This document shows, piece by piece, positions 481 through 52,858 of a DNA stretch of 64,000 bases. The notes beneath the pieces were generated by a model. That model was not told the DNA's origin. It saw nothing but the letters and a program-made list of their open reading frames with translations, and ran no database searches. A program made the position numbers and the translations under genes. How positions within the stretch are numbered: position 1 is the first letter of the stretch; each line of letters begins with the position of its first letter. The DNA is from Micrococcales bacterium (GTDB lineage Bacteria > Actinomycetota > Actinomycetes > Actinomycetales > Dermatophilaceae), in contig JAJTBD010000004.1 of NCBI GenBank assembly GCA_021287075.1, forward strand, positions 62,001-126,000. The letters are read 5' to 3'.

Positions 481-501
481 CTACCGAGTGTTAAGCAGCG
501 G

Positions 502-3427: not shown

Positions 3428-3605
3428 GGGACCTCCTGTGGGGGACTCGCTCTCATCCCACCACGTACGGCTCACCGCGGCCACCGCCCCTGGGGCGTTC
3501 CCACCGGGCAATATCGACTCTCACCGCAGGCACCACGCGGGGCCGGGCATGCTCGACAGCGCCGGCTGCGCGGCATACCTGATAGTCGTTATTGCCGCCC
3601 CGGTG

Positions 3606-3950
3606 TCAGTCGGCCTCGTGCATCGGCTGGCCGACGACCTGGACCAGCGAGCCGAGGGTGGCCAGGGCGATGCCGGCGCCACGCGAGCCGGTGAGCGCCA
3701 GTCCCGCGCCGGCCGCGGCGGTGAGCGCGACGATCACGCCCACGCGGGGCCAGAGCGGGAGGCGCGCCTCGGAGCGCGGCGCGATCCAGCGACCCCAGGC
3801 GGTGATGACCAGCACCACCGCGAGCGCGGCAAGCGCCCACCCGGCCACGCCGCCGCCCGCCAGCCGATAGCCGATGACACCGACCGCCGCCCACAGCCAG
3901 ATCTCCTGGGTGAAGACGAGGGCCCCGACCAGCAGCTGCGCAGCGCTCAC
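3606..3950 (-). CDS. DUF2568 (YrdB-like) small membrane protein
   Basis: A 114-residue protein with about four hydrophobic helices, ending in a conserved-looking hydrophilic HEAD tail. It starts with [20 protein letters not shown], typical of the DUF2568/YrdB family, whose role is unknown. I chose the GTG at 3950 because it gives the normal family length and has a weak AAGGATGG upstream; the ATG at 3998 would add 16 non-hydrophobic residues. It points away from the LOG/MFS pair. The spacer from 3428 to 3605 holds one reverse GTATGCCGC motif and no gene. Confidence 0.7.
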
Positions 3951-4206
3951 ACCACCATCCTTGCCGAACCCCCCTTCGGCGACCAGCGCCCCGCACAAGG
4001 ACGACCACGGTTGCCCGGCGGACAGCCCTGCTGGTGCGCGCCGAGCACAGGGCCGGGCCCCCGGGGCGTGACCATGGTCGTCGTTGTGCGGGCGAGGGTG
4101 CGGGGGTATGCCGTGCAGCCGGCGCGGAACTCGCCAATTGGTTTAATGGTGGGTGGGGGCGCGGGGGGGGCGGGCGACTGGGGCACGCGGCATACGGCCA
4201 GCCCAA

Positions 4207-4212
4207 TAGTGT
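4207..4212 (+). promoter_or_regulatory. Probable -10 box of a leaderless transcript (LOG gene)
   Basis: TAGTGT ends 7 bases before the ATG at 4220, and no Shine-Dalgarno sequence is present. Transcription would start at or next to the start codon. The upstream spacer also holds a poly-G run (about 4161-4170) and two GTATGCCG-type motifs. Confidence 0.5.
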
Positions 4213-4219
4213 GAGTCGC

Positions 4220-4795
4220 ATGGACAGTGTGTGCGTCTTCTGCGGCTCCAGCCCGGGCAATGACCCCGCATACCTGGAGGCGGCGAGCGCCCTGGGGCGC
4301 GAGATCGCCTCCCGCGGCATCAGGCTGGTCTATGGCGGGGCGAGCGTGGGGCTGATGGGCGCGGTCGCCGATGCCGCCATGGCCGCCGGCGGCGAGGTCG
4401 TCGGGGTCATCCCCTCCCACCTGTGGGACGCCGAGGTGGGCCACGCCGGCCTGACCGATCTGCACGTCACCGCCTCGATGCACGAGCGCAAGGCGCTGAT
4501 GGCCGAGCTGTCCGAAGGGTTCCTCGCGATGCCCGGCGGCTTCGGCACGCTCGAGGAGGTCGTCGAGATCCTCACCTGGGGCCAGCTTGGGCTGCACCAC
4601 AAGCCGATCGGCTTCCTCGACACGGCCGGCTTCTATGAGCCCCTGATGCGTTTCGTGGACCACGCGGTCGGCGCGGGCTTCATCCGCGCGCAGCACCTGA
4701 GCCTCTTCCACCGCGGCGCCGACCCGGCCGCGCTGCTGGACGACATGGCCACCTGGGAGCCCACGACCGTCCCCAAGTGGGTCGAGCGCACATGA
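4220..4795 (+). CDS. LOG family protein (cytokinin riboside 5'-monophosphate phosphoribohydrolase-like)
   Basis: A 191-residue TIGR00730/LOG protein. It opens with [13 protein letters not shown], carries the nucleotide-binding GGASVGLMG, and has the family signature PGGFGTLEE near residue 106. Members cleave nucleoside 5'-monophosphates to base and ribose-5-phosphate. The ATG at 4220 follows a TAGTGT -10 box by 7 bases; a GTG at 4213 is in frame but less likely by family alignment. Its TGA overlaps the ATG of the MFS gene, so the two are probably co-translated. Confidence 0.88.
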
Positions 4796-5973
4796 CCGAT
4801 CGGGTGGCTCCCTGGCTGCGCGTGGCGCTGGCCATGTTTGGGGTCGGCTGGGGCGCAAACCAGTTCGCGCCGATGGTCCTGGCCTATCGCCAGCAGGACG
4901 GGCTCAGCGAGTCCTCGGTCACCCTGATGTTTGCCATGTATGCCGCGGGCCTGATCCCAGCGCTCCTGGTCTCCGCCCGTGTCTCGACGATCATCGGGCA
5001 CCGCTCCGTGCTGCGCCCGATGATGGTGCTGTCGGTCCTCGCGTCGCTGATGCTCATCGCCGGCAAGGACCACGAATGGGCCCTGTTCGCAGGGCGGTTC
5101 ATGGCCGGCGTCGCCTCGGGCGCCGTCTTCGCCCCCGGCACGGCGTGGGTCCGCGAGCTGTCGGCGGGCGCCCCCGCGGGCACCGGCGCGCGACGCGCGG
5201 CGATCGCCCTGTCGTCGGGTTTTGGCGGCGGGCCGCTGGTCGCCGGCATGCTCGCCCAGTGGGGACCGCACCCGCAGGTCCTCCCCTATCTCGCCCACCT
5301 GCTCGTGATGGTGATCGTCACGCCCCTGGTCTGGCGCGCACCCGAGACCGCCGACGAGCACCACCTCACGCTCGCGCCGCACGGCGCCCTCCACACCATC
5401 TTCAGCGCGCCGTATGCCGCGGTGCTCGCCCCCGTCGGACCGTGGGTCTTCGGGTCGGCGGCCCTGGGTTTCGTCACGGTCCCCTCCCTCGTCGCCGACA
5501 AGACGGTGGGGATCGCCATCGCGCTCAGCGGTTTTTCCGCGGCCCTCGGGCTGGGCACCGGCGTCGCGATCCAGCCCCGGGTGCGGCGGATGGAGGCCCA
5601 CCGTCCGGGCAGCGCCCTGCCGCTGGGAATGCTGCTGTCCACGGCCGGCCTGCTCACCGGGGCCACCACGGCAGCCACCCACCAGGTCGCACTGGTGGCG
5701 CCGGCAGCGGCACTGCTCGGCACGGCATACGGCATGGTCCTCACCGGTGGGCTGATGCAGGTGGAGCGGCTCGCCCATTCCGACACCCAGGCCCTGCTCA
5801 ACGCCGTCTTCTATGCGGTGACCTATGTGGGCTTCATCTTCCCCTTCGTCGCCGCGGTGCTCACGCGGCGTTTCGGCCCGGTCGAGGTGATGCTCGGCGG
5901 CGCCGTGGTCACCGTGCTCACCGCGCTGTGGGCAGCCGGGATGGAGCGGCGCTATCTGCGCCACAGCCACTGA
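4792..5973 (+). CDS. MFS transporter
   Basis: A 393-residue membrane protein with about 12 hydrophobic segments and a major-facilitator pattern. Helix 2/3 carries the arginine-rich [15 protein letters not shown] loop, which corresponds to the MFS motif A region, and [16 protein letters not shown] resembles the motif in helices 4-5. No substrate can be assigned. Translation is coupled to the LOG gene by an ATGA overlap (4792-4795), so the pair may handle a purine or nucleoside compound, which is inference only. Three GTATGCCG motifs lie inside, all read as Tyr-Ala or Ala-Tyr. Confidence 0.85.
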
Positions 5974-6024
5974 CCCCGCCCACGCTGGGGGGCAAAGTTC
6001 TCGTGCCCGAGGTTGCACAACGGC

Positions 6025-6040
6025 ATACCCCCTGGGGTAT
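6025..6040. promoter_or_regulatory. CstR/CsoR-type operator upstream of the persulfide gene
   Basis: ATACCCCCTGGGGTAT is an inverted repeat of ATACCCC around a 2-base centre, the form bound by the CsoR/CstR repressor family. It lies 46 bases before the start codon and overlaps the likely promoter (TTGCAC at 6013, TATGTT at 6038). A nearly identical palindrome precedes the CoA-disulfide reductase gene at 43512. The downstream gene's sulfur chemistry favours the persulfide sensor CstR over the copper sensor CsoR. Confidence 0.85.
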
Positions 6041-6086
6041 GTTGGAACTGGCCTGCGACATCCGACGCGCAACCGAGAGGACCACG

Positions 6087-7442
6087 ATGACCGTCACGAT
6101 CGTCCCCATTGAGACCCCCACCCTGGGCGACCGCAGCTATCTCGCCCACGACGGCCAGGTCGCCCTCGTCGTCGACCCCCAGCGTGACATCGACCGGGTC
6201 CTCGAGCTCGCCGAGCGCGAGGGCGTGCGCATCACGCACATCGTCGAGACCCACATCCACAACGACTACCTGAGCGGCGGCCTGGCCCTGGCCGAGAAGA
6301 CCGGCGCCGGCTACTACGTCAACGCCGCCGACCCGGTGGCCTATGAGCGCATCGGCATCAGCGACGGCGATGTCATCGAGGTCAGCGACGCCATGCGGGT
6401 GCGCGTCATCGCGACGCCCGGCCACACCTTCACCCACCTGTCCTATGCCCTCGAGGGCGAGACCCAGGCCGTTTTCACCGGCGGCTCCCTGCTCTTTGGC
6501 TCGACCGGGCGCCCCGACCTGCTCGGCCCCGACCACACCGACGCCCTCGCCCGCCACCAGTGGGCCAGCGCCCACCGCCTCGCCGACGAGCTCGCCGACG
6601 ACACCGCGGTCATGCCCACCCACGGCTTCGGCAGCTTCTGCTCCGCGACCCAGTCCGAGGGCACCGACTCCACGATCGGCAAGGAGAAGACGTCCAACCC
6701 CGCGCTCACCAAGAGCGAGGAGGACTATGTCGAGGAGCTGCTCGCCGGCCTCGACGCCTTCCCCGCCTACTACGCCCACATGGGCCCGGGCAACACCGCC
6801 GGCCCGTCCGACGCCGACCTCTCCGCGCCCGAGCCCGCCGACAAGGCCGAGATCAGGCGCCGCCTCGAGGCCGGCGAGTGGGTCGTCGACCTGCGCACCC
6901 GCACGGCATTCGCGGCCGGCCACGTGCCGGGGTCGTTCAACTTCGGCCTCGACGGCCAGTTCTCGACCTATCTCGGGTGGCTCATCCCGTGGGGCACCCC
7001 GCTCACCCTCCTCGGCGAGTCGCCGGAGCAGGTGGCCGAGGCCCAGCGAGAGCTCGTGCGCATCGGCATCGACCGCCCCGCCGCCTCGGCGACCGGCGAG
7101 CCGGCGGACTGGACCGACGCCGAGCTCGCGACCTTCCCCCGGGCGACCTTCGCTGACCTGGCCGACGTGCGCCACCACCGCCCGGTGACGATCCTCGACG
7201 TGCGCCGCGAGCCCGAGCACGCCGACTCCCACATCGAGGGCAGCGTCAACATCCCGATCCACGACACCCTGAAGCGTCTCGACGAGGTGCCGCAGGGCGA
7301 GCTGTGGGTGCACTGCGCGGGTGGCTACCGCGCCTCGCTCGTCGCCTCGATCCTCGCGGCCAAGGGCCACCAGGTCGTCGCCGTCGACGAGAACTACGCC
7401 GAGAACGCCCCCAAGACCAATCTGCCGCTCGTCACCGCCTGA
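6087..7442 (+). CDS. MBL-fold persulfide dioxygenase-like hydrolase fused to two rhodanese domains
   Basis: A 451-residue cytoplasmic protein. The N-terminal metallo-beta-lactamase domain has THIHNDYLSG (metal ligands) near residue 54, TPGHTFTHLSY near residue 111 and PTHGFGSFC near residue 178, as in the ETHE1/Blh group that oxidises or hydrolyses persulfides. A first rhodanese domain (about 260-350) lacks the active cysteine. A second (about 365-450) has the active loop CAGGYR. The ATG at 6087 follows GAGAGG by 6 bases. With the CstR-type operator upstream this is a sulfide/persulfide detoxification gene. A weak CCGCC/GGCGG hairpin follows the stop. Confidence 0.9.
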   Translation: MTVTIVPIETPTLGDRSYLAHDGQVALVVDPQRDIDRVLELAEREGVRITHIVETHIHNDYLSGGLALAEKTGAGYYVNAADPVAYERIGISDGDVIEVSDAMRVRVIATPGHTFTHLSYALEGETQAVFTGGSLLFGSTGRPDLLGPDHTDALARHQWASAHRLADELADDTAVMPTHGFGSFCSATQSEGTDSTIGKEKTSNPALTKSEEDYVEELLAGLDAFPAYYAHMGPGNTAGPSDADLSAPEPADKAEIRRRLEAGEWVVDLRTRTAFAAGHVPGSFNFGLDGQFSTYLGWLIPWGTPLTLLGESPEQVAEAQRELVRIGIDRPAASATGEPADWTDAELATFPRATFADLADVRHHRPVTILDVRREPEHADSHIEGSVNIPIHDTLKRLDEVPQGELWVHCAGGYRASLVASILAAKGHQVVAVDENYAENAPKTNLPLVTA

Positions 7443-7753
7443 CCGCCCGAGAGGCGGCCGGGGCGCGAGGTCGTCCCGGTGACTGAGAACTCTCGCCCGT
7501 TCACTAGGGCCTCGATCCGCGATCTCTAGTAGATTCGGCAGTAGCGCGACATGCCGTCCGGACCCCCTGCCGGACCGCAACGCTGTCGCGCAGGGCCGGC
7601 CGGCGCTCTCACCCCTGTGGCGCTCGGCCGGCCCGCTGCATTCCCCGCCCCCTCCGCGGCATTCGTGCCTTTCGTCTCACTCGGGGATCCCACCGCCTCG
7701 CCGCACCGGTGCGCACTAGGCTGTGAGCCACGCACCACCTGGAGGAGGAGACC
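7443..7753. other. Intergenic region with promoter for the FMN protein gene
   Basis: No gene is visible in these 311 bases. A weak hairpin (CCGCC/GGCGG, 7445-7459) follows the persulfide gene. Near the other end TAGGCT (7717-7722) is a plausible -10 box, and GGAGGAGG (around 7741) is a strong ribosome binding site for the gene at 7754. The middle part is GC-rich without recognisable motifs. Confidence 0.5.
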
Positions 7754-8203
7754 ATGGAGCACGACTTCGACCGCCCGACCGAAGAGGTCATCCACAACCT
7801 CTCCGAGGACGAGTGCTGGGACCTGCTCGAGAAGCACGAGTTCGGCCGGCTCGCCTTCCACCTCGCCGGCGATGTCGACATCCGCCCGATCAACTATGTC
7901 GTGCACGACCGGCAGATCCTCTTCATCACCGCCCCCGGCGACAAGCTGCTCGGCATCGTGATGAACTCCGACGTCGCGTTCGAGATCGACGAGATCCTCA
8001 AGGGCGAGCACGCCATGAGCGTCATCGTCCACGGCAACGCCCGTCACCTCGAGGGCCCCGACGCCCAGATCATCGAGCAGCTGCCGCTGCGCCCCTGGGT
8101 GCCGACCGCCAAATACGACGTCGTCTCGATCACCCCGTCCTTCGTCACCGGCAAGCGCTTCGATCTCTCGCGCCCCTGGTCGCACATGCGGCCGATGCGC
8201 TGA
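7754..8203 (+). CDS. Pyridoxamine 5'-phosphate oxidase family protein
   Basis: A 149-residue split-barrel flavin or F420-binding protein. It has the pattern CWDLLEKHEFGRLAFHLAGD followed by IRPINYVVHDRQILFITAPG, typical of PNPOx-like small proteins of actinobacteria. It ends in a basic tail after SITPSFVTGKRFDLSRPW. A strong GGAGGAGG site 5 bases upstream fixes the start. The reaction is unknown; relatives use FMN or F420 to reduce small molecules. It faces the amidohydrolase gene tail to tail across a GTATGCCGC hairpin. Confidence 0.85.
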   Translation: MEHDFDRPTEEVIHNLSEDECWDLLEKHEFGRLAFHLAGDVDIRPINYVVHDRQILFITAPGDKLLGIVMNSDVAFEIDEILKGEHAMSVIVHGNARHLEGPDAQIIEQLPLRPWVPTAKYDVVSITPSFVTGKRFDLSRPWSHMRPMR

Positions 8204-8221
8204 CCCCACCACGACGACAGC

Positions 8222-8262
8222 GGTATGCCGCGTGTGCAGCTGCGCACGCGGCATACCTTTTT
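8222..8262. terminator. Bidirectional terminator built from two GTATGCCGC motifs
   Basis: GGTATGCCGCGTG is mirrored by CACGCGGCATACC around a GCAGCTGC centre. There is one T-G wobble in 18-base arms, followed by TTTTTG on the + strand. It lies between two convergent genes (stops at 8203 and 8282). It is the first of three such hairpins in the window. Confidence 0.8.
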
Positions 8263-8281
8263 GTGTGAGCAGCCTCGGGGC

Positions 8282-9265
8282 TCAGGCGCCCTCGAAATAG
8301 CGGCGCGGGTTGTCCACCAGCATCTGGTCGATCTGCTCCTGGGTGACGCCGGCCTCGAGCAGGGCGGGCAGGATGTCGGCGACGATGTGGCCGTAGTGCC
8401 AGTCGGGCACCGCCGGCATGATCTCCGGCGCGACCCAGTCGATGTGGCAGGACGCGTCGTGGGCCAGCACCATCCGGTCGGCGAAGCCCCGCTTGGCCAG
8501 CTCGACGACGACTCCCACGCGCTGCTCGGTGGAGGCCTCGAGCGTGATGCCGAAGCGGTCCATGCCCAGCCAGAAGCCGGCCTCGGCGAGCTCGCTGAGG
8601 TGGTCGGCGTCGGCGGTGTCACCGCTGTGGCCCAGGACGATCCGGCCCGGCTCGACGCCGAGGTCGTCGACAAGGACCTGCTTGACGAGCAGGCCCGTCC
8701 TGGAGTCGGGGTGGGTGTGCACGGTGATGGGCGTGCCGGTCTCGAGGTGGGCGGCGCCGACCGCCCGCATGATCCGCTCTACACCGGGTGTCATGCCGGG
8801 GGCGTCGATGGCGCACTTGAGCAGACCGGCCTTGACCCCCGTGCCGGCGATGCCGTCGCGGATGTCGCCGACGAACATCTCCACCATCGGCTCGGGCACC
8901 TCGGCGCCGACCATCGCGTTGAGCGCCGGCCCGCGGTAGTCGAAGAAGTGCGGCGCGGAGTCATAGGTGTACATGCCCGTCGCGACGACGATGTTGAGGT
9001 CCGGCACGCGCTCGGCCACCTGCTGCACCAGCGGGATGTCGCGGCCGAGGCCGACGACGGTGGGGTCGACGATCGTGCGGATGCCGTCGTCGACCAGCTG
9101 CTGGAGCTTGGTCGCCGCGTCGGCGATGCGCTCCTCCTCGGGGGCATAGAACTGCGGGTAGTTGGCCTTGATGTCGGCGCTGGTGACGAAGACATGCTCG
9201 TGCATATAGGTCTTGCCGAGGTCGGCGGTGTCGACCTGGCCTCGGATGGTCTCGATCTGCGCCAT
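8282..9265 (-). CDS. Phosphotriesterase family metal-dependent hydrolase
   Basis: A 327-residue TIM-barrel amidohydrolase of the phosphotriesterase/lactonase (PLL) type. It shows the first metal ligands in YMHEHVF (residues 21-27), the carboxylated lysine in GLLKCAID (about 150), then TVHTHP, LGHSGDT and LAHDASCH for the remaining ligands. Length and motif order match the family. Natural substrates are probably lactones or related esters, and organophosphate activity is promiscuous in this family. The start at 9265 has ATGGCGCAG with GAGCGCGCC upstream and no strong ribosome site. Confidence 0.85.
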   Translation of the reverse strand: MAQIETIRGQVDTADLGKTYMHEHVFVTSADIKANYPQFYAPEEERIADAATKLQQLVDDGIRTIVDPTVVGLGRDIPLVQQVAERVPDLNIVVATGMYTYDSAPHFFDYRGPALNAMVGAEVPEPMVEMFVGDIRDGIAGTGVKAGLLKCAIDAPGMTPGVERIMRAVGAAHLETGTPITVHTHPDSRTGLLVKQVLVDDLGVEPGRIVLGHSGDTADADHLSELAEAGFWLGMDRFGITLEASTEQRVGVVVELAKRGFADRMVLAHDASCHIDWVAPEIMPAVPDWHYGHIVADILPALLEAGVTQEQIDQMLVDNPRRYFEGA

Positions 9266-9371
9266 GGCGCGCTCCTTGGGTCTGAGGGCTGGGCTGCCGC
9301 CCGCGACGGGGCGGGCCGGGCCCTGCGCACGCTAGTGGCGCGGGTCACCGCCGCGCCAGAGGCTGTCCGCC

Positions 9372-9377
9372 TAGACT
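9372..9377 (+). promoter_or_regulatory. Probable -10 box of a leaderless transcript (lipase gene)
   Basis: TAGACT ends 6 bases before the GTG start at 9384. No ribosome binding site lies between. This matches at least nine other genes in the window. Confidence 0.6.
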
Positions 9378-9383
9378 CCCCGG

Positions 9384-10850
9384 GTGCCCCAGCCCTCCCG
9401 CCGCACGTGGTGGTATGCCGCGTCCGCCGCCCTCGTCACCGCCCTCACCGGCCTGACGTGGGGCTGTGCCGCGCGCGACGACGCTCCCACCGGCAGCTCG
9501 GCGAGCTCGACCGCCAGCTCGACGCCGAGGTCGACGGCGGGGTCGGCGCCCGGCGCGGCCGCCGCCAGCGGGGCCGCGACGGCGAGCACGGCCGATCCCG
9601 GAGTGAGCGGCAAGGTGGGCCCGGCGACCGGGCCGACGGGCAACGCGACCGGGCCCTCGCCCGCAGCGTCCGCCTCGACCCCGGGCGCGTCTCCGTCGGG
9701 CGACCCCGGTGACGCCACGGCCCCGACGGACGACTCCTTCTATACGCCGCCCGCAAAGCTGCTGGCCGGCCCGCACGGCTCGGTCATCTGGTCGCGGCGG
9801 ACGGCCGGGCCCAAGAGCGGCACGACCTGGCTGGTGCTCTATCGGTCGGTGGACCTGCACGGCAGACCGATCGCGGTCTCCGGGACGGTCTCGCTCCCCA
9901 ACGGCGCTGCGCCGCAAGGGGGCTGGCCCGTGCTGTCGTGGGCACACGGCACCACCGGTATCGCCGACCAGTGCGCCCCGACCCGCCTTGCGGGCGGCCT
10001 GCTCGGCGCCTATCAGGGCACGGTGCTGGCCTCCCTCGACCGGTGGCTCGATGCCGGGTATGCCGTGGCCGCCACCGACTACCAGGGCCTGGGCACGCCG
10101 GGCCCACACCCCTATCTGATCGGGCCCGCCGCGGCACGGTCGGTCACCGACGCCGCACTGGCGGCACGCGAGTTCTCGCCGAGTGTGTCCACGCAGTGGT
10201 TTGCGGCCGGGCACTCGCAGGGCGGGCACGCGGCGATGTGGACCGCGGGCGTCGGGCCAGCCTGGGCGCCGTCGATGCGGCTGCGCGGGGTCGTCGCGTT
10301 CGCGCCGCCGTCGGGCCTCGGTGGCGCGGTCGCGACGCTGCGCGGCCAGCCGCTCTCGGGCGGCGGCTTCATCCCGCTGCTGCTGCGGGGCGCCCAGACC
10401 GTCGAGTCATTGCCCGACGCCAAGCTGCTCACCCCGACGATGGCCAAGGCGATGCCCGAGGCCGACGCCTCCTGCATCGACCGCCTGATGTCGCCCACGG
10501 GCTGGGGCGGGCTCAAGACCAATGAGGTCTTCGTCCCCGACGCCGACCTCGCCCGCTTTGCCGCGGTGCTCGGCGCCAACGACCCGGTCAAGGCCAAACC
10601 GTCGGTGCCGGTCTATGTCGCCCAGGGTGGCCGCGACACGGTCGTCATGTCGGAGCTGACCGGCGAGCTGGTCGCCGCGCTCAAGGCGTCCGGCGCCAAG
10701 GTCACCTATCAGACCTATCCCGCCGCCGACCACCTCACCGTCCTGCCCCTGGCCGAGGCCGACGCCGCGACGTGGATGAACACCACCTGGGCCTCCGCCG
10801 CCAAGTCCACGCCAGCCAAGGCCACACCGCCCACCGCCACCTCTCGTTGA
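9384..10850 (+). CDS. Secreted lipase family protein (LIP-type alpha/beta hydrolase)
   Basis: A 488-residue exported protein. Residues 1-30 form a signal sequence (RRTWWYAASAALVTALTG) ending near a cysteine (LTWGCA) that resembles an imperfect lipobox. About 75 residues of Ser/Ala/Thr/Pro/Gly linker follow, then an alpha/beta hydrolase of the secretory lipase (LIP) family. The oxyanion region is SWAHGTTGIADQC, the nucleophile serine is in AGHSQGGHA (about 274), and the late histidine is in AADHLTVL. The C-terminus is again Ala/Thr/Pro rich. The stop codon TGA lies inside the left arm of the downstream 64-base hairpin. Confidence 0.85.
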   Translation: MPQPSRRTWWYAASAALVTALTGLTWGCAARDDAPTGSSASSTASSTPRSTAGSAPGAAAASGAATASTADPGVSGKVGPATGPTGNATGPSPAASASTPGASPSGDPGDATAPTDDSFYTPPAKLLAGPHGSVIWSRRTAGPKSGTTWLVLYRSVDLHGRPIAVSGTVSLPNGAAPQGGWPVLSWAHGTTGIADQCAPTRLAGGLLGAYQGTVLASLDRWLDAGYAVAATDYQGLGTPGPHPYLIGPAAARSVTDAALAAREFSPSVSTQWFAAGHSQGGHAAMWTAGVGPAWAPSMRLRGVVAFAPPSGLGGAVATLRGQPLSGGGFIPLLLRGAQTVESLPDAKLLTPTMAKAMPEADASCIDRLMSPTGWGGLKTNEVFVPDADLARFAAVLGANDPVKAKPSVPVYVAQGGRDTVVMSELTGELVAALKASGAKVTYQTYPAADHLTVLPLAEADAATWMNTTWASAAKSTPAKATPPTATSR

Positions 10851-10908
10851 CTTGTAGCAACTCACGCCTAAGAACCCCGTTTTAGGCGTGAGTTGCTACA
10901 AGTCAACG
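10845..10908. terminator. 64-base hairpin of the 27-10-27 family (copy 1)
   Basis: Two perfect 27-base arms enclose a 10-base loop. The arm starts CGTTGA and ends CTAA, and the loop is GAACCCCGTT. Each arm holds an inner imperfect palindrome (ACTTGTAGCAACT). The element lies between convergent genes and overlaps the lipase stop codon. Copy 2 at 18184 has the same sizes, ends and loop pattern but a different inner sequence. It is probably a bidirectional terminator, but the conserved shape suggests more. Confidence 0.8.
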
Positions 10909-10946
10909 GATCGGGAGGGGCCGACGGAGGGGTGGCGGGTGGCCGG

Positions 10947-12473
10947 TCAGCCGAGGCCGGCCCGGCGGATCTTGCCGTTGGCGGTGCGCGGCAGCCGGTC
11001 GGTGAAGACGATCTCGCGAGGGCGCTTGTAGGCCGCGAGGTGCTCCGCGGCATACCCCAGCAGTGCGGCGGCATCGACGCCGTCCGGCTCGTCGGGGTCG
11101 GCCGGCACGACGTATGCCGCGATGATGCTCACCCCTGGCCGCACCTCCAGCTCGCCGACCGCGACCTCGGCGACCGCGGGGTGCGCGGCGAGCACGTGCT
11201 CGACCTCGAGCGGCGAGACGCGGTAGCCGCCGGCGTTCATGATGTCGTCGTTGCGGCCGTGGTAGTGGACATAGCCGTCCTCGTCGAGATGCACCAGGTC
11301 GCTGGTCACGAACCACTCGCCGCGGGTGACCGCCGCCGTGTCCTCCGGCCGCTGCCAGTAGCCGAGCATGAGCCCCGGGTCGCTGCGGTGCACGGCGAGC
11401 AGGCCGGACTCCCCTGTCGCACAGGCCTCCTCGCCACCGTCGACCGGGAGCACCGCGACCCGCCGCCCCTCCTGGGCCCGACCCGGGCTGCCCGGCCTGA
11501 TCGGGACGCTCGGGCTCGTCGAGACGAAGGTCGAGATCTCGCTCATGCCGAGCGACTCATAGAGCTCCAGCCCGGTCGCCTCCCGCCACTCCTCGAGCAG
11601 CGCGGGGCTCAGGGCCTCGCCGGCCGTCAGGCCGTGGCGGAGCGAGGACAGGTCGTGGGCGCCCACGTCGCCATAGTGGAGCAGCTGGCGATAGACGCCC
11701 GGGACGGCGGCAAAGATCGTGGCGCCGTATCGCTCGATGAGCAGCGGCCAGATCGTGCGGTCGTGGGGACCGTTGTAGATCAACGCTGTTGCGCCGTTGG
11801 CCCACGGGTCGGTCAGGCCCACGCCGAGGGTGTAGGTCCAGTTGAAGGCACCCGCGTGCAGCATCGTGTCGTCGGGGCCGATGGCCTCCCACCCGGCATA
11901 CATCGGCCGGCGCCCCCACGCTGCCCGGTGCGCGTGCAGGACGCCCTTGGGCCGTCCGGTCGTGCCGGAGGTATAGACGAGGTATGCCGCGTCGTCCGCG
12001 GGCGTGTCCGCATAGTCGGCGCGCTCGCCGCCCTCCCGCCATCCGGCCAGATCGGCCGGCGTGACCTCGTGGACTCCGTCGGGCAGTGACACCCGCAGCT
12101 CCTCGCTCTGGACCAGCACCTCCGCACCCGAGTCAGCGAGGAGATAGTGGGCCTCCTCCTCGGTCAGCTGGGCCGAGCTCGGCAGCGAGACCAGGCCGGC
12201 CGCCATCGCGCCGAAATAGACGAGGGGATAGTCGCTGACATTGCCCAGGCGGACCATCACGCGCGAGCCCGGCTCCAGGCCGAGGCGCCCGAGCCCCGCG
12301 GCGACGGCCCGGACCGCGTCATCGAGCTGGGCATAGGTCCACCGCTCGGCCTGCCCGGCCGGGGCGTGGGCGTCGGACACGACGATGAGTGCCGTGTGGT
12401 CGGGGCGCTCGGCCGCGGGTCGCCCCACACAGTGCCGGGCCATCGAGAACCGCTCGGGCACAGGCTCGCTCAT
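10947..12473 (-). CDS. AMP-dependent acyl-CoA synthetase/ligase
   Basis: A 508-residue ANL-superfamily adenylating enzyme. It has the phosphate loop YTSGTTGRPKGV (about 168), the A5-like YESLGMSE, the hinge GRNDDIMNAGGYRVSP and the catalytic lysine in RTANGKIRR near the end. The sequence is closest in style to medium-chain or aryl-acid CoA ligases. The ATG at 12473 (MSEPVPERF) gives the normal length; a longer frame upstream overlaps the lrgA promoter and is unlikely. It is divergent from lrgAB. The acyl substrate is unknown. Confidence 0.85.
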   Translation of the reverse strand: MSEPVPERFSMARHCVGRPAAERPDHTALIVVSDAHAPAGQAERWTYAQLDDAVRAVAAGLGRLGLEPGSRVMVRLGNVSDYPLVYFGAMAAGLVSLPSSAQLTEEEAHYLLADSGAEVLVQSEELRVSLPDGVHEVTPADLAGWREGGERADYADTPADDAAYLVYTSGTTGRPKGVLHAHRAAWGRRPMYAGWEAIGPDDTMLHAGAFNWTYTLGVGLTDPWANGATALIYNGPHDRTIWPLLIERYGATIFAAVPGVYRQLLHYGDVGAHDLSSLRHGLTAGEALSPALLEEWREATGLELYESLGMSEISTFVSTSPSVPIRPGSPGRAQEGRRVAVLPVDGGEEACATGESGLLAVHRSDPGLMLGYWQRPEDTAAVTRGEWFVTSDLVHLDEDGYVHYHGRNDDIMNAGGYRVSPLEVEHVLAAHPAVAEVAVGELEVRPGVSIIAAYVVPADPDEPDGVDAAALLGYAAEHLAAYKRPREIVFTDRLPRTANGKIRRAGLG

Positions 12474-12566
12474 GCCCCCACTCTGCCAGCCGCGCGGCAT
12501 ACCCGCCGTGGGCCCGGACACCCCGAGGGGTACGGGCCTGTCGGGCCCGGTGGGAGAATGGCGGTC

Positions 12567-13070
12567 ATGCTCTCCGGACTCATCGCGCTCCTGGCGTGCC
12601 AGCTGGCCGGGGAGTTCCTCGTGCGGGCGCTGTCGTTGCGCGTGCCCGGCCCCGTCGTCGGGATGCTCCTGCTCCTCGCCTTCCTCACGATCCGCGACTG
12701 GCGGCGGCACGCCGCGCCGCCGCCGGAGGAGTCCAGCCGGGTGGAGCGGGCGGCCGACGCCTTCCTCACGCATCTGCCCGTGCTCTTCATCCCCGCCGCC
12801 GTCGGGGTCATGCAGTATTTCGACGTCATCGCCGAGCACTGGGGGCCCGTCCTCGGCGGCAATGTCATCGCCTGGCTGGCCACCCTGGTGATCACGGCCG
12901 GGGCCGCACAGCTCATGCTCACGCTGCTGCCCGACTCGCTCACTGGCGACCCCGAGGAGGCCGAGGCGCGCGCCATGGTCCGCGAGGCCGACCGCATCGA
13001 GGGCCTCGAGGCCGACGACGCCGAGGGGCCCGGCCGGCGCGGTCCGGAGAGTGAGGGAGAGCGCCGATGA
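12567..13070 (+). CDS. lrgA: LrgA/CidA family membrane protein
   Basis: A 167-residue holin-like protein with four membrane helices. It shows the family order: CQLAGEFLVRALSLRVPGPVVGMLLLL, then ADAFLTHLPVLFIPAAVGVMQ. A charged, acidic C-terminal tail of about 40 residues (GDPEEAEARAMVREADR) is longer than usual. I chose the ATG at 12567 because a GAGAAT -10 box ends 7 bases before it; an in-frame ATG at 12558 would fall too close. LrgA works with LrgB to modulate murein hydrolase export or pyruvate transport. The TGA overlaps the lrgB ATG. Confidence 0.85.
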   Translation: MLSGLIALLACQLAGEFLVRALSLRVPGPVVGMLLLLAFLTIRDWRRHAAPPPEESSRVERAADAFLTHLPVLFIPAAVGVMQYFDVIAEHWGPVLGGNVIAWLATLVITAGAAQLMLTLLPDSLTGDPEEAEARAMVREADRIEGLEADDAEGPGRRGPESEGERR

Positions 13071-13780
13071 ACCTCGACGGTGCCTTCGAGGCGATCACCC
13101 ACTCACCGCTCTTCGCGCTGCTGCTGACGCTCGCGGCATACCAGGCCAGCGTCTGGCTGTGGCGCAAGGCGGGGCGCACCCCGCTGCTCACGCCGGTCTT
13201 CATCGCGATCATCACCGTCGTGCTGGTGCTGCTCGCGATGGGAGTGGACTATGCGACCTACATGGAGGGCGGGCAATATCTCAGCTTCCTCCTCGGGCCC
13301 GCCGTCGTCGCGCTCGCCGTGCCGCTGCACCGGGCCTCGGCCTCCATCCGCTCGCTCGCGATCCCCGTGGTGGTCGGGGTGGTCGTCGGCGCCGCGGGAG
13401 CGATCGTCGCGTCGGTGCTGACCGTGCGGCTGCTCGGTGGCAGCGAGGAGCTCGCGATGACGATGGCCCCGAAGTCGGCCACCACCCCCATCGCGATCGC
13501 GCTCGCCCCGAGCATCGGCGGAGTCGCCTCTCTCGCAGCGGTGTTCACGATGATCACGGGCGTGCTGTGCGCGATCGTCGGCCCGGCCGTGCTCAACCTG
13601 CTGCGGGTGCGCGACACCCGCGTGCGCGGCCTCGCCCTCGGCGTCTCGGGGCATGGCGTCGGGACCTCCCGCGCCCTCCAGGCCGGGCCGGTGCAGGGTG
13701 CCTTCGCCGCGCTGGCCATGGCGATGACCGGCGTGGCCACGAGTCTGTTCCTCCCGCTGGTCATCGCCCTCCTCGGCTGA
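13067..13780 (+). CDS. lrgB: LrgB family membrane protein
   Basis: A 237-residue protein with seven or more membrane segments and both LrgB hallmarks: MAPKSATTPIAIALAPSIGG (about 142) and GVSGHGVGTSRALQ (about 201). It starts with an ATGA overlap on lrgA, so the pair is coupled. LrgA/LrgB are linked to autolysis control and to pyruvate uptake in other bacteria. No LytTR-type regulator is next to the pair here, so control is unknown. Confidence 0.9.
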   Translation: MNLDGAFEAITHSPLFALLLTLAAYQASVWLWRKAGRTPLLTPVFIAIITVVLVLLAMGVDYATYMEGGQYLSFLLGPAVVALAVPLHRASASIRSLAIPVVVGVVVGAAGAIVASVLTVRLLGGSEELAMTMAPKSATTPIAIALAPSIGGVASLAAVFTMITGVLCAIVGPAVLNLLRVRDTRVRGLALGVSGHGVGTSRALQAGPVQGAFAALAMAMTGVATSLFLPLVIALLG

Positions 13781-13787
13781 CCTCGGG

Positions 13788-13825
13788 GATAGACGATCTA
13801 CCCTTGTCGGCGGTAGATTTCTACC
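13788..13825. promoter_or_regulatory. VapBC autoregulatory operator and leaderless promoter
   Basis: Two related inverted repeats, GATAGACGATCTACC (13788-13802) and GGTAGATTTCTACC (13812-13825), share GGTAGA/TCTACC half-sites with 24 bases between starts. The second one contains the -10 box TAGATT and abuts the vapB ATG at 13826 directly. No ribosome site fits between. VapB binding would therefore block both RNA polymerase and the transcript start. Confidence 0.7.
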
Positions 13826-14095
13826 ATGGGCCTGAACATCAAGAACGAGCGCGTGCACGAGCTCGCCCGCCGCGCCGCCGCCGTGACGGGCAAGAGCCAG
13901 ACGGGGGCGATCGAGGAGGCGCTCGAGCGGCTCCTCGCCGAGCACGGGCACGACCCGGTGGCCGCCCAGGCCCAGGCCAGGGTCGACCGGGCCCAGCAGA
14001 TCGTGGCCGACTACGCCGCCCTGCCCGCACAGCGCCGGCGTCAGATCCGGCGCGCCGAGGACCTCTACGACGACGCGACCGGGATGCCCCGGTGA
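13826..14095 (+). CDS. vapB: Type II antitoxin, VapB/Rv0623-like
   Basis: An 89-residue antitoxin of the PSK/Rv0623-like VapB family. The N-terminal ribbon-helix-helix begins GLNIKNERVHELARRAAAVTGKSQT. A charged helical C-terminus (residues 50-85) would wrap the toxin. The two GGTAGA palindromes upstream fit autorepression. Its TGA overlaps the GTG of the toxin gene, so toxin translation depends on that of the antitoxin. The pair is isolated between lrgAB and the MMPL gene. Confidence 0.88.
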   Translation: MGLNIKNERVHELARRAAAVTGKSQTGAIEEALERLLAEHGHDPVAAQAQARVDRAQQIVADYAALPAQRRRQIRRAEDLYDDATGMPR

Positions 14096-14481
14096 TCGTC
14101 GACACCTCCGCCCTCATCGCGATCATCGAGGGCGAGCCCGGCAGCGAGGAGCTGCTGCGCCTGGCCGCCACCTCGACCTGTCGGATGTCGGTGGCCAGCC
14201 AGCTGGAGGCGGGCATCGTCGCCGATGCCCGGTCCACCTCACACGGCGCGCGCCTCGACGAGCTCATCGAGGCGCTCGAGATCGAGCTGGTGCCCGTGAG
14301 CGTGCGCGATGCGGCGGTGGCCCGCCACGCCTATCGACGGTTCGGCCGCGGGTCCGGCTCGGCCGCCGCGCTCAACTACGGCGACTGCTTCGCCTATGCG
14401 CTGTCGGTCACGAGCGGCGAGCCGCTGCTCTTTGTCGGCGACGACTTCACCCACACCGACGTCGCCAGCGCGCGCCCCTGA
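14092..14481 (+). CDS. vapC: PIN-domain ribonuclease toxin VapC
   Basis: A 129-residue PIN-domain endoribonuclease. The first acidic residue is in IVDTSALIAII (residues 2-12), a conserved glutamate is in SQLEAGIV, and the later acids are in NYGDCFAYAL and FVGDDFTHTD. The motif GSAAALNYGDCFAYALS is typical of the VapC group paired with Rv0623-like antitoxins. Translation starts at GTG 14092 within vapB's stop. The target RNA is unknown. Confidence 0.88.
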   Translation: MIVDTSALIAIIEGEPGSEELLRLAATSTCRMSVASQLEAGIVADARSTSHGARLDELIEALEIELVPVSVRDAAVARHAYRRFGRGSGSAAALNYGDCFAYALSVTSGEPLLFVGDDFTHTDVASARP

Positions 14482-14495
14482 GCGACAGACCAGGA

Positions 14496-14530
14496 GAGGT
14501 ATGCCGCGGGGCGACCCCGCGGCATACCTC
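14496..14530. terminator. GTATGCCGC hairpin between convergent genes (copy 2)
   Basis: Perfect 16-base arms (GAGGTATGCCGCGGGG and its complement) surround a 3-base CGA loop. It lies between vapC (stop 14481) and the MMPL gene (stop 14564). There is no T-tract on either side, so it may rely on stem strength alone or act otherwise. Confidence 0.7.
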
Positions 14531-14563
14531 CAGGTCGGCGGCCGGCACCGAGACGGCGCGGCC

Positions 14564-16702
14564 TCAGTCGCCGTGCTTGGCCCTGCGCAGGCGGCTGGGC
14601 CACCAGATGCGGTCGCCGAGGTCGACGGCCAGGGCCGGCACGAGCAGCGAGCGCACGACGATGGTGTCGAGCAGCACGCCGAAGGCCACGATGAAGGCGA
14701 TCTGCACCATGAACAGCAGCGGCAGGACCGTCAGCGCCGAGAAGGTCGCGGCCAGCACGATGCCGGCGCTGGTGATCACGCCGCCGGTGACGGCCAGACC
14801 GATGAGCGTGCCCTCGCGGGTGCCGCGCCGCATCGACTCCTCGCGCACCCGGGTCATCAGGAAGATCGAGTAGTCGATGCCGAGCGCGACGAGGAAGACG
14901 AAGCCATAGAGCGGGGTGGCCGGGTCGGAGCCGGGGAAGTCCCACACGTGGTTGAACAGCAGCGCGGCGACGCCGAGGGTGGCGGCAAACGAGATCACGT
15001 TGGCCACGATCAGGATGACCGGCGCCACGATCGAGCGCAGCAGCAGGCACAGCACGAGGAAGACCACGGCCAGGATCGCCGGGATGATCACCTTGAGGTC
15101 GCGCTGGCTGGCGGTGCGGGTGTCGAGGTTGGCCGCGGTGGTCCCGCCGACCAGGACGTCCTCGGAGACGCTGTCGAGGTCGGCGCGGAGGCGGCTGATC
15201 ACCTCGTCGGCCTCGACGCTGTCGGCCGACTTCTCCAGGGTCGCGGTGACGACCTGGAGCCCGTCCACCGGCTGGCTCGGCTGCCCCGGACTCAGGCCGA
15301 TCAGGGGGTTGCTGATGTCGGCCTCGTCCTTGAGGCGGGCGACCACCGCGTCGGCCTTGTCGGCCGGGGTGATGATCTGCACCGGGCTGCCGGAGCCGGC
15401 GTCGAAGTGCTTCGCCAGCGCCTCCTGCCCGGTGACCGACTCGGGGGTGTTGAGGAAGGTGTCGCCCTCCGTGATGCCCGCGTCCTTGAAGGTCGGCAGG
15501 AATGCCGCGGCCGCGAGCAGGGCGGCCAGCGTGATCACCCAGGTGCGGCGCGGGTGCTCGCCCACCATGCGGGCCACGCGACCCCAGACGCTGCGGGTGC
15601 CGAGGGCGTCCTCGCGGTGGACGTGGTCGACGCGCGGGATGGCCGGCCAGAAGATCGCCCGGCCAAAGAGCAGGAGCACGGCGGGCAGGAAGGTGAGCGC
15701 CGCCAGCAGCGCACCGGCGATGCCGAGCGCCCCGACCGGGCCCAGGCCGGAGGTGCTGCCGAGGTCGGAGAGCAGCAGGCAGAGCAGGCCCAGGATGACG
15801 GTGGCGCCGCTGGCGATGATGGGCTCGACCGAGGCCTTCCAGGCGGTCTTCATCGCCTCCCAGGTCGACTCGGTGTCGTGCAGCTCCTCGCGGTATCGGC
15901 TGACGAGCAGCAGCGCATAGTCGGTGGCGGCGCCGACGACGAGGATCGAGAGGATGCCCTGCGACTGGCCGGACAGGCCGATGTGGCCGCCCTTGGCGAG
16001 CGGATAGACCACGAGCGCGGCGACGGCCAGACCGAAGACGGCCGTGATGAGCACGGCGATGGGCAGGATCGGGCTGCGATAGACGATGAGCAGGATGACG
16101 AAGACGACCGCGAGCGCGGTGAGCAGCAGGATCCCGTCGATGCCCGCGAACGCGTTGACGAGGTCGGCGACGATGCCGCCGGGGCCGGTCACCTGGCTCT
16201 CGATGCCGTTGGGCTTGAGGCTGTCGTCGAGCTCGCGCAGCGCATCGACGCTCGCCTGGAGGGGAGTGCCCTCGCCGACGGTCTCGCTCGCCCGGCCGGC
16301 GTCGAGGTTGACGATCATCAGGGCGGCGGTGCCGTCCTTGCTCGGGATGGCCGCGGGGGTGCCGACGAGGTAGTCGCCGATCGTGCGGCTCTGGCCGTCG
16401 CCGAGGTCGATGGCGGTCTGGGGCACCTTGGCCGCCAGCGCCTGGACCGCCGCGAGGTCGGCCCGCTCCAGCTTGGCCGACTTCTCCATCACGACCATGA
16501 CGGGCAGGGCCTCGGTGTCGGTGAAGTCACCGAGCCGCTCGCTCACCTTGGTCGACTCGGCCGTCGCCGGCAGGAATGCCGCGTTGCCGTTCTCCTGGAC
16601 CTCGCTGAGCTTGCCGACGGTCGGGCCGCCGAGCCCGCCGATCGCCAGCCAGGCGAGGACGGCGAGCAGGGCCAGCAGTCGGACGGTCCATCGAGAGCGC
16701 AT
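14564..16702 (-). CDS. MMPL family RND transporter
   Basis: A 712-residue membrane transporter. It has two MMPL modules, each with an external domain followed by a bundle of membrane helices, about 11-12 in total. The first bundle includes ILSILVVGAATDYALLLVSR and the second GFVFLVALGIDYSIFLMTRV; both carry the Asp-Tyr pair used in proton relay. Members export lipids or hydrophobic compounds. The ATG at 16702 starts a normal signal-anchor (RSRWTVRLLALLAVLAWL). It is divergent from the TetR gene, with palindromic operators between. Confidence 0.9.
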   Translation of the reverse strand: MRSRWTVRLLALLAVLAWLAIGGLGGPTVGKLSEVQENGNAAFLPATAESTKVSERLGDFTDTEALPVMVVMEKSAKLERADLAAVQALAAKVPQTAIDLGDGQSRTIGDYLVGTPAAIPSKDGTAALMIVNLDAGRASETVGEGTPLQASVDALRELDDSLKPNGIESQVTGPGGIVADLVNAFAGIDGILLLTALAVVFVILLIVYRSPILPIAVLITAVFGLAVAALVVYPLAKGGHIGLSGQSQGILSILVVGAATDYALLLVSRYREELHDTESTWEAMKTAWKASVEPIIASGATVILGLLCLLLSDLGSTSGLGPVGALGIAGALLAALTFLPAVLLLFGRAIFWPAIPRVDHVHREDALGTRSVWGRVARMVGEHPRRTWVITLAALLAAAAFLPTFKDAGITEGDTFLNTPESVTGQEALAKHFDAGSGSPVQIITPADKADAVVARLKDEADISNPLIGLSPGQPSQPVDGLQVVTATLEKSADSVEADEVISRLRADLDSVSEDVLVGGTTAANLDTRTASQRDLKVIIPAILAVVFLVLCLLLRSIVAPVILIVANVISFAATLGVAALLFNHVWDFPGSDPATPLYGFVFLVALGIDYSIFLMTRVREESMRRGTREGTLIGLAVTGGVITSAGIVLAATFSALTVLPLLFMVQIAFIVAFGVLLDTIVVRSLLVPALAVDLGDRIWWPSRLRRAKHGD

Positions 16703-16743
16703 GTCTGAGTCTTCCCCATCGCGGCCGGGGATCCGCCCAGCCA

Positions 16744-16797
16744 TTGCGAACATTGTTTGCAATATCGACCGTACGCCTTCGGGTACAGTGTTCGCAA
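16744..16797. promoter_or_regulatory. TetR-type operator in the MMPL/TetR divergent promoter
   Basis: TTGCGAACATTGTTTGCAA (16744-16762) is a near-perfect inverted repeat of TTGC(G/A)AACA. The half-site TGTTCGCAA recurs at 16789-16797. Placement between the divergent MMPL exporter and its TetR neighbour fits joint repression released by the exported ligand. Confidence 0.7.
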
Positions 16798-45265: not shown

Positions 45266-45999
45266 ATGAACATCGTCGACCGACTGCTCATCCGTACCCC
45301 GACGCGGTGGCTTGTGGCGCTGGCAGCAGCGGCGGTCGCCATCCTGGTCGTGTGCGGGGTCACCTGGCAGGTCCTCCAGGACGGTGCGCTCTGGATCGGT
45401 CTCGACACCGAGTCGAGGCTGCGCCCCTCGCCGAGCATCAACCTCCCAGCCCTGACCTCCGGTCTGGTGCTGATCGGCGCCGGTTTCTCCTGGCTGTCGG
45501 TGGCGCCCCACATCGTCGCCCACCGTGTCCGCCGCCAGCTCACCCGGCTGCTCGGCGGCTTCCTCATCTTCATGGGCCTCGACGAGGTTTTCGGCATCCA
45601 CGAGGACCTCGGCGGCCTGTTCAACACCGACTGGCAGATCGTCTATCTGCCGATCATCGCCGTCGGCGGGGTCGGCGCTCTCGGCGCGCTGTCCTATCTG
45701 TGGAGTGAGCGCTGGCGGGCGCCGCTGGGTCGCTCCTCTATGGCGGCTTCTCCTGGGCCTACTCCCAGCTGGTCGAGAAGCTCAGCTGGGACTATGACGC
45801 GTCCGGTCACAAGACGCCGTCCGAGCATCTGACCGCGCTGACCTTCGTCGAGGAGACCGGCGAGATCATCGGCTCCGCCTGCTTCTTCCTCGCCGCAGCC
45901 CTGACGATCAAGGCCATCGTGCGCCACCACCGCGACGCTGCCCTCGACGCCGCCCTGCGCGAGGAGGCCGCGGTCGGACGGGCCCGTAGCCACCGCTGA
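45266..45999 (+). pseudogene. PHO-box-controlled membrane protein, frameshifted
   Basis: The first 155 residues (four membrane helices; VALAAAAVAILVVCGVTWQ, SGLVLIGAGFSWLSVAP, GGFLIFMGLDEVFGIHEDLG) are in one frame. Around 45710-45730 the frame is lost. Another frame continues with SLLYGGFSWAYSQLVEKLSWDY and ends EIIGSACFFLAAALTIKAIV to a TGA at 45997. The two parts together would give about 243 residues with five or six helices. DEVFGIHE resembles a metal- or ligand-binding turn in a membrane family I cannot name. One missing base, or two added, would explain it. Confidence 0.65.
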
Positions 46000-46005
46000 C
46001 CTCAG

Positions 46006-47301
46006 TCAGGCAGTATGCCGCGGAGGCGCGAAGGCCATGCCGGCACCGACATCGGCGGTGCGCATCATGACCAGGTCGCGGGCGTAGTTCTGGTGCATCT
46101 GCCAGGGCGCCCTGGTGCCCTGCTTGGGGAAGGCCCCCTCCGCGCGGTGGACATAGCCGGCATCCAGCGGCAGCAGCGGCCGCTCCTCCATCCGACCGCT
46201 GGGGGTCGGCACCGCGACGGCATACCCGTGCCTGTCCATATAGGCGAGCAGTCGGCAGACATAGCGGGAGGCGAGGTCGGCGCGCAGCGTCCACGAGGCG
46301 TTGGTGTATCCGACGCACATCGCGGCGTTGGGCACGCCCGAGAGCATCATCCCGCGATAGACGAAGGAGTGGGCGAGGTCGACCGGCTGCCCGTCGACGC
46401 TCACGTCGACCCCGCCGAGCGCGAGCATCTCCAGACCGGTGGCCGTGACCACGATGTCGGCCTCGATGATCTGACCGGATGAGGTGCGGATGCCTTCTGG
46501 CACAAAGCGATCGATGGTGTCGGTGACCACCTGGGCGCGCCCGCTGGTGATGGCCTCATAGAGGTCGCCGCCGGGGATGAGGCACAGCCGCTGGTCCCAC
46601 GGGTTGTAGCGCGGGGTGAAGTGCTCGTCGACAAGTCGCTCGTCGCCGAGCCCCTCGACATTGCCGGCCCGCAGTATCCGCTTGACCAGTCCCGGCCGGC
46701 GCCGGCTCAGCTGATAGAGCGTGGAGTTCATCGCGACCGACTTCGCCCGCGCGAGGCGAGAGGCGGCCATGGCCGGGAGTCGGCGCTGGAGCTCGCGCAC
46801 CACGACATCCTCGGCCGGCTGGGAGACCACATAGGTCGGGGTATGCCGCGCGCTCTCCCCCTCCGCGTCGGTCACCTCGGTCGCCAGAGTCCACCGCTGG
46901 ACGGTCGAGTCCCATTGCGCCGCAACGACCTTGGTGCCGAACTCGATGCGACGGTCGATGCCGTGCTCATGGGCGGTGTCGCGGATGTAGTCGCGGATCT
47001 CGGGCCCGCTGGCGATCGCGGTGGGGGTGCGCCACGGCCGGAAGGGATAGCCGAGGGTGAACATGTCGGAGTCGGAGCGCACGCCCGGATAGCGGAAGAG
47101 GTCCCACGTGCCGCCGATGGCCTGCCGCCCCTCGAGGATGGTGTAGCTGCGCTGCGGGTGGCTCTCCTGGAGGCGATAGGCCGCACCGATGCCGGACAGG
47201 CCGGCGCCGACGATGACGACGTCGTGGTGGCTGGTGTCCGGGGCCGTCGTGGGCGCGCCGTGGTCCGCGGGGCCAGGCGAGTGCGCTGTGGGTGCCGACA
47301 T
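46006..47301 (-). CDS. EthA-like Baeyer-Villiger monooxygenase with its NADPH domain core deleted
   Basis: A 431-residue protein closely similar to EthA (about 490). The FAD motif VIVGAGLSGIGAAYRL and WDLFRYPGVRSDSDMFTLGY are present, as are PHYNPWDQRLC-like RYNPWDQRLCLIPGGD, VTATGLE and MMLSGVPNAAMCVGYTNASW. About 74 residues are missing between positions 147 and 152, removing the FxGxxxHxxxWP fingerprint and the second GxGxxG that binds NADPH. The frame is kept, and the junction reads SARHTPTYVVS with ARHTP encoded by a GTATGCCGCGC motif. It is probably inactive as a monooxygenase. The gene ends with another GTATGCCGC motif (RHTA). Confidence 0.8.
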   Translation of the reverse strand: MSAPTAHSPGPADHGAPTTAPDTSHHDVVIVGAGLSGIGAAYRLQESHPQRSYTILEGRQAIGGTWDLFRYPGVRSDSDMFTLGYPFRPWRTPTAIASGPEIRDYIRDTAHEHGIDRRIEFGTKVVAAQWDSTVQRWTLATEVTDAEGESARHTPTYVVSQPAEDVVVRELQRRLPAMAASRLARAKSVAMNSTLYQLSRRRPGLVKRILRAGNVEGLGDERLVDEHFTPRYNPWDQRLCLIPGGDLYEAITSGRAQVVTDTIDRFVPEGIRTSSGQIIEADIVVTATGLEMLALGGVDVSVDGQPVDLAHSFVYRGMMLSGVPNAAMCVGYTNASWTLRADLASRYVCRLLAYMDRHGYAVAVPTPSGRMEERPLLPLDAGYVHRAEGAFPKQGTRAPWQMHQNYARDLVMMRTADVGAGMAFAPPRHTA

Positions 47302-52820: not shown

Positions 52821-52858
52821 AGGGGTATGCCGCGGGCTCGGGCCCGCGGCATACCCCT
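52821..52858. terminator. GTATGCCGC hairpin between convergent genes (copy 3)
   Basis: Perfect 17-base arms (AGGGGTATGCCGCGGGC and its complement) around a 4-base loop. It is placed between the quinone oxidoreductase (stop 52801) and paiB (stop 52879). Like copy 2 it lacks a T-tract. Confidence 0.75.

Follow-up and report, generated by a model that had tools for sequence, protein, structure and literature searches.

How does a monooxygenase gene come to lack part of its coding region in frame, with a short word that recurs throughout the surrounding DNA lying on the seam? The question is raised by positions 46006 to 47301 of the window, the 64,000-nucleotide stretch analyzed here from a Micrococcales bacterium of the family Dermatophilaceae (assembly GCA_021287075.1, contig JAJTBD010000004.1, positions 62,001 to 126,000). 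The original prediction for this locus described an EthA-like gene that had lost its residues either recently, by recombination at the motif, or on the way to a new role. The reading preferred here, to which a probability of roughly 60% is assigned, is that the gene carries a private, loss-of-function deletion and that the word next to it is one copy of a putative uptake tag, in what would be a third family with such a tag.

A shortened EthA-like monooxygenase gene

An open reading frame scan and a homologue alignment place an EthA-like Baeyer-Villiger monooxygenase (BVMO) gene on the minus strand (47301 to 46006), where it runs for 431 codons from ATG to TGA with no internal stops and has lost about 74-76 codons in frame. 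At the gap its product, P0001, has 17 residues, compared with 87-107 in 108 of 108 other homologues, a set that left out one homologue cut by a contig end (L071) and the window's own copy. The gene is short by about 222-228 bp, a deletion that none of the other homologues examined shares. The missing part contains FxGxxxHPxxW, the BVMO fingerprint, and GSGATA, the second (NADPH) Rossmann motif; the FAD-binding GxGxxG is kept as GAGLSG. Among the 17 homologues shown, 16 were positive for the fingerprint by pattern and all 17 carried GSGATA, and P0001 was negative for both. The loss of some 74 residues, the absence of fingerprint and NADPH site, and the preservation of the rest of the protein, flavin site included, had all been predicted, and all were borne out.

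The whole of P0001 matches EthA-like proteins (80 loci came from a scan of named genomes), and its N-terminal third matches BVMOs with solved structures. It resembles the EthA-like and phenylacetone-type BVMOs in its identity to full-length homologues (38-71% over aligned segments), in its FAD motif, and in that its best PDB matches by sequence and by fold are BVMOs, and it is unlike them in having neither the fingerprint nor the NADPH Rossmann motif. A match was found in 152 of 186 genomes of the same family. The genome from which the window was taken (the source genome), the one representative of its genus in the comparison set and hence one with no congener there, has a single EthA-like match, the short form.

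The remainder of the protein has not accumulated extra changes: of the columns outside the gap, 91 are conserved in at least 95% of homologues, and P0001 deviates at one of them, against a mean of 1.1 among the homologues, 52 of 108 of which deviate at least as often. A decaying short gene was rejected on this basis, and the gene must be either freshly deleted or still selected. A recent loss, as predicted, is consistent with these counts, but a gene still under selection would look alike. An AlphaFold2 model built from 20 sequences, an approach that the original prediction had suggested, has a mean pLDDT of 78.5; the FAD fold is confidently modeled (pLDDT about 90 at residues 31-60), whereas residues 148-155, the junction, fall below 50. 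The best 50 PDB fold matches of the model are BVMOs, with TM scores of 0.54-0.66 by query length. Since half of the NADPH domain is gone, the 431-residue protein would not be a working BVMO: it would keep the FAD fold, without NADPH binding or Baeyer-Villiger chemistry, and the gene appears to be a recent loss-of-function allele. The shortened gene is real and the deletion private and probably inactivating; taken alone, it is ordinary.

The gene next door (window positions 45266-45999) looks frameshifted near 45,700, through either a real change or a sequencing error. Read in the frame that begins at 45266, its product would finish with an improbable tail, and another frame gives a plausible membrane protein up to 45999. 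The motif is absent near this apparent frameshift.

The junction copy of the motif and the origin of the deletion

The predicted motif on the junction was confirmed: a plus-strand copy of GTATGCCGC at 46841-46849 spans codons 151-154 of this minus-strand gene, where the gene strand reads A151-R152-H153-T154. Another plus-strand copy, missing from the original prediction, occupies codons 428-430 (46013-46021), at the gene's 3' end, and encodes R428-H429-T430 directly before the stop. The R-H-T reading is an uncommon frame, used by 16 of 241 coding copies in the source-genome sample. The two copies in this frame in the cross-genome test sat at very poorly conserved residues (0.06).

Did the motif cause the deletion? 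Slippage or recombination between two copies, with one left at the scar, would account for a copy exactly on the junction, which a random point would touch with a chance of only about 1% (at 736 eight-mers in 827 kb; a figure judged after the fact). However, the search for the motif at the two ancestral breakpoints found it at neither in any of 29 family homologues (six copies in all, elsewhere), and coding copies showed no significant association with indels (19 near an indel, 15.3 expected, z 1.13; 70 alignable copies). This is a weak test, its nearest homologue coming from outside the genus and sharing only 59% identity across the columns compared. Moreover, residues 146-154 can be aligned to the left flank of homologues (e.g., L082), so that one pre-existing copy joined to an unrelated right end suffices. 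Deletion through the motif, one of the two readings originally put forward, was rejected on the breakpoint and indel results and is considered improbable. Equally doubtful is a selected new role for the protein as a flavoprotein without NADPH. The intact reading frame, the conserved columns without excess changes and the FAD fold retained in the model would all suit such a role, but a recent deletion predicts the same conservation, the short form occurs in no other genome examined, and the residual NADPH domain is left without its first half, with a junction that is predicted at low confidence. Still less credence is given to an assembly or sequencing artefact. The source genome is a 43-contig draft and the neighboring gene seems frameshifted; yet clean in-frame losses of more than 200 bp are not usual among short-read errors. 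Rather than having caused the private deletion, the motif most likely occupies the junction because the new linker is unconstrained, a disordered new linker being somewhere a copy would be expected to be tolerated.

Abundance and sequence of the motif

The motif is in any case not a local scar, as had been proposed, but a genomic tag found family-wide. The window holds 51 copies of GTATGCCGC, spanning positions 1217-59852, where 0.43 were expected (k-mer expectations are from a second-order model), and none of 100 shuffles reached 51. The 3.56-Mb source genome holds 2,311 copies, compared with 35 of a reversed-word control. A tag spread across the family would explain the motif of the original prediction without a local mechanism. 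In 428 kb of the source genome the core GTATGCCG occurs 392 times, where 12.5 occurrences would be expected. GTATGCCGC (306) and GTATGCCGT (65) account for most of these, with G usually the base that comes next, which gives a tag core of GTATGCCG(C/T)G. The density of the 8-mer core is one per 1,124 bp (736 in 827 kb); PMC2397512 gives a spacing of about 1,150 nt for the neisserial DNA-uptake sequence (DUS).

The word is sharp. Of 27 one-mismatch 9-mers, three are clearly enriched: 9T (65 vs. 1.7 expected), 9G (18 vs. 3.9) and 2A (30 vs. 2.2). A related side observation is that GAATGCCGC, seen 30 times against 2.2 expected in the 428 kb, differs from the core by one base at the position where the dialect described below differs; it is a possible third dialect or decay intermediate. 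The tag word is not a palindrome. Its strand split in the two halves of two single-contig relatives, halves that assume a record start near the origin, was 19 plus/27 minus and 51 plus/46 minus in one (G102), and 47/42 and 31/37 in the other (G164). A recombination site of the Chi type was rejected because the expected strand bias relative to replication is missing from both.

Placement in genes, hairpins and foreign DNA

Gene calls, made with a simple script of our own rather than a standard gene finder, assigned 241 of the 392 tag copies in the source-genome sample to genes and 146 to the spaces between them, where 73 were expected. Coding copies occupy all six frames. Together, the intergenic enrichment and the use of all frames rule out an origin of the word in codon pairs or protein repeats. 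An intergenic excess was modest in G164 (50 vs. 34 expected) and absent from G102 (26 vs. 32 expected), where only two intergenic head-to-head pairs were seen.

Within genes, the tag is kept at the synonymous level. GCA is a rare alanine codon (923 of 15,784, or 5.8%), yet it supplies 89 of 115 alanine codons in the context CG-GCx-TAy; G-TAT-GCC-G outnumbers G-TAC-GCC-G by 100 to 9, though TAT and TAC are about equally frequent overall. That near-parity is itself curious at 71% GC (1000 TAT vs. 1160 TAC in 312 called genes of the source genome) and is only partly explained by the tag; GTAC avoidance was rejected as the cause of TAT-rich codon use, being only mild (ratio 0.67). Residues at coding copies show lower conservation than do matched positions (0.407 against 0.534; rank 0.376 ± 0.036), as measured on the 70 copies that lie in aligned genes out of 146 copies in 10 loci. 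Sites themselves persist: among seven congeners of another genus, and at five sites only, 70 of 99 pairwise comparisons found the tag intact, whereas the fraction for random 8-mers was 0.33.

Within 45 bp of each other, 45 pairs in 827 kb are head-to-head, nine tail-to-tail and three tandem, and about 29 pairs of all kinds were expected. The 827 kb contain 44 hairpins whose stems extend past the motif. In the window, such pairs form hairpins at 14499-14527 and 52825-52854 and, at 8223-8256, a long-stem hairpin followed by a T-run, resembling a terminator. The first 428 kb has 20 head-to-head pairs that are intergenic: eight are flanked by convergent genes, which make up 34 of 197 gaps, and one by divergent genes, which make up 53 of 197. 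Judged by sequence, inverted tag pairs would be terminator-like.

Only two gaps between tags exceed 5.5 kb in the 827 kb, and both deserts, found after the fact, hold distinctive genes. The larger (16.8 kb, no copies vs. 15 expected) encodes TniQ, TniB, an rve-type transposase and Abi_C; the smaller (11.2 kb) encodes a 2,296-residue RHS-repeat protein. The 16.8-kb desert corresponds to positions 1-16763 of a locus on contig 2 of the source genome (L121), a Tn7/Tn5053-like element that also carries an HTH-ImmA/IrrE protein and two TniQ-like proteins, one confirmed by Pfam and the other recognized by eye.

Distribution across genomes and dialects

Enrichment, defined as a count of 100 or more that also reaches three times the control (a cut-off chosen after seeing the table), was found in 110 of 186 genomes of the family, representing 32 of 53 genera; 71 genomes were at background and five fell between the cut-offs. 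Outside the family, none of 273 other-family genomes in the order sample (297 genomes, 24 of the same family) and none of 195 in the phylum sample (198 genomes, three of the same family) were enriched, two other-family genomes being common to both samples. Among the 80 named loci, only one, from Metallococcus carri (L064), is rich in the core, with 19 copies in 21.4 kb; the next richest has three in 11.7 kb. This locus includes a locus of the family set (L109 of G093) letter for letter. NCBI places Metallococcus carri in the Dermacoccaceae, a family that we take to correspond to Dermatophilaceae in GTDB.

In some tag-poor genomes the tag is replaced by GGATGCCG, with 58 copies in 60 kb of G178, 57 in 40 kb of G034 and 31 in 40 kb of G017. 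The corresponding word GGATGCCGKC occurs 556-990 times in seven of 186 genomes (G017, G018, G034-G037 and G178) and at most 303 times in the other 179; two of the seven, G036 and G037, are rich in both tag words. Counts of 242 and 282 in two genomes of genus g46 (G153 and G158) stand above those of most tag-poor genomes. They may reflect a fading dialect, since the tree makes G153 the sister of a genome with the GG dialect.

A tree of LeuS+ComEC from 19 genomes puts its two GG genomes in separate clades: the sister of one is a GT genome, that of the other a tag-poor genome. The starred branches of this tree force at least five changes of GT state, and labels are no more clustered across its 19 taxa than when shuffled. 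The pattern is compatible with a tag of old origin that has been lost in places and switched at least twice, the tree being one that cannot separate gain from loss. Separately, tag-poor genera over-represent another word, CGAAGGGG, for which two 40-kb samples gave counts of 55 against an expected 5.0 and 43 against 5.9, at loci L202-L205 (G091 and G092) and L137-L139 (G051), and the 9-mer CGAAGGGGG was seen 19 times against 1.3 expected in 60 kb of G051. CGAAGGGG is possibly another tag or a terminator stem.

Competence machinery

The source genome has a leuS-comEA-comEC locus in which ComEA (with SLBB and HHH domains) and ComEC are intact, and it encodes DprA. Its Tad cluster includes T2SSE, T2SSF and a short DUF4244 pilin, presumably the actinobacterial Flp pilin; a TadE-like match in the cluster is weak, below the curated cut-off. 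Across the family, ComEC was found in 180 of 186 genomes and the DUF4244 pilin in 172 of 186, tag-rich or not. The presence of ComEC or Flp was rejected as a predictor of the tag, both ComEC and DUF4244 being present in tag-poor relatives as well. The type IV pilus markers PilM_2 and MshEN were not found in the source genome and occur in seven of 186 family genomes each, so that a link to type IV pili was rejected; with these markers nearly absent, a ComP-like route is unlikely. The machinery allows uptake and does not point to a receptor. On contig 5 of the source genome, another locus (L127) encodes proteins that look, by eye from their translations, like a type I CRISPR-Cas operon.

A putative DNA-uptake sequence

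On sequence grounds, the tag is our best candidate for a third uptake-sequence system, and we infer that it serves as a DNA-uptake sequence. In the proposed mechanism, a surface component of a route formed by the Tad/Flp pilus, ComEA and ComEC would prefer tagged DNA, DprA and RecA would recombine the incoming tagged DNA, and biased uptake together with recombination would multiply and preserve the tag. As described in PMC3630211, PMC2397512, PMC5031613 and PMC12616744, DUS and the uptake signal sequences (USS) are habitually high in copy number, rarely deviate even singly, form inverted pairs at terminators, have dialects, lie at permissive core positions and are missing from recently acquired genes. 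The tag is like the DUS of Neisseriaceae in its hundreds to thousands of copies per genome at about one per kilobase, its sharp word, its inverted pairs at apparent terminators, its permissive core-genome sites, its absence from recent acquisitions, its one-base dialects and the occasional presence of two dialects within one genome. It is unlike DUS in that it occurs in another phylum with another cell envelope, in that the words share only ATGCCG, and in that its receptor, ComP, belongs to the minor pilins of type IV pili, whose markers the source genome lacks. The shared hexamer, which is present in the neisserial DUS ATGCCGTCTGAA given in PMC5031613, is probably a coincidence. With the USS of Pasteurellaceae, as outlined in PMC12616744, the tag has in common a nine-base word, restriction to a family and two dialects; it differs in that the USS word AAGTGCGGT is unrelated and its carriers are gammaproteobacteria with type IV pili. 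Closer in lineage is the actinobacterium Micrococcus luteus, which has tad genes, ComEA and ComEC (PMC4322843, PMC6370729), a gene set similar to that found here, and in which tad genes are required for transformation (PMC4322843); the excerpts of these two papers describe no uptake sequence. In a literature search of open-licence PMC papers, none of those inspected was recognized as describing this word or actinobacterial uptake sequences.

An abundant, sharp, chromosome-wide word could also be a binding site for a chromosomal protein, involved in the nucleoid, segregation, repair or recombination or acting as an orphan methylase, and unrelated to uptake. Newly arrived foreign DNA would be without such a site too, and the competence machinery does not track the tag, both of which favor this explanation; the tag, however, shows no strand polarity in two relatives, unlike Chi or segregation sites, its word is not palindromic, and head-to-head terminator pairs and one-base dialects are a published habit of uptake sequences (PMC3630211). 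A chromosomal-protein site is accordingly held to be unlikely, while deserving real weight. The hairpins, with stems reaching beyond the motif, would instead suit a tag that is mainly a transcription terminator or other RNA element spread as a repeat family. Most copies are single, however, those in genes lie in all frames and both orientations, and copies are made through synonymous codons, unlike those of a mobile repeat; such an origin is regarded as very improbable. An uptake sequence remains the preferred reading of the tag. Counting against it are the failure of ComEC and DUF4244 to predict which genomes are tag-rich, the rarity of type IV pilus markers, the scattered occurrence of the tag in the 19-taxon tree, and G102, with its lack of intergenic enrichment and its few intergenic head-to-head pairs. 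In its full form, the proposal is of a third, independently evolved uptake-sequence system, the first in Gram-positive (actinobacterial) cells, operating via Tad/Flp rather than a type IV pilus, and with two or more dialects (GTATGCCG and GGATGCCG) between which the gene exchange of a single family would be partitioned; this is rated at slightly better than even odds.

If this proposal is true, the tag would be the first uptake tag for this branch of bacteria, and a third case, in another phylum and with another pilus machinery, would mean that such mate choice evolved again. The 32 tag-rich genera, with their dialects and losses, would offer material for asking why uptake tags exist, and the tag itself would provide a handle for transforming poorly tractable actinobacteria.
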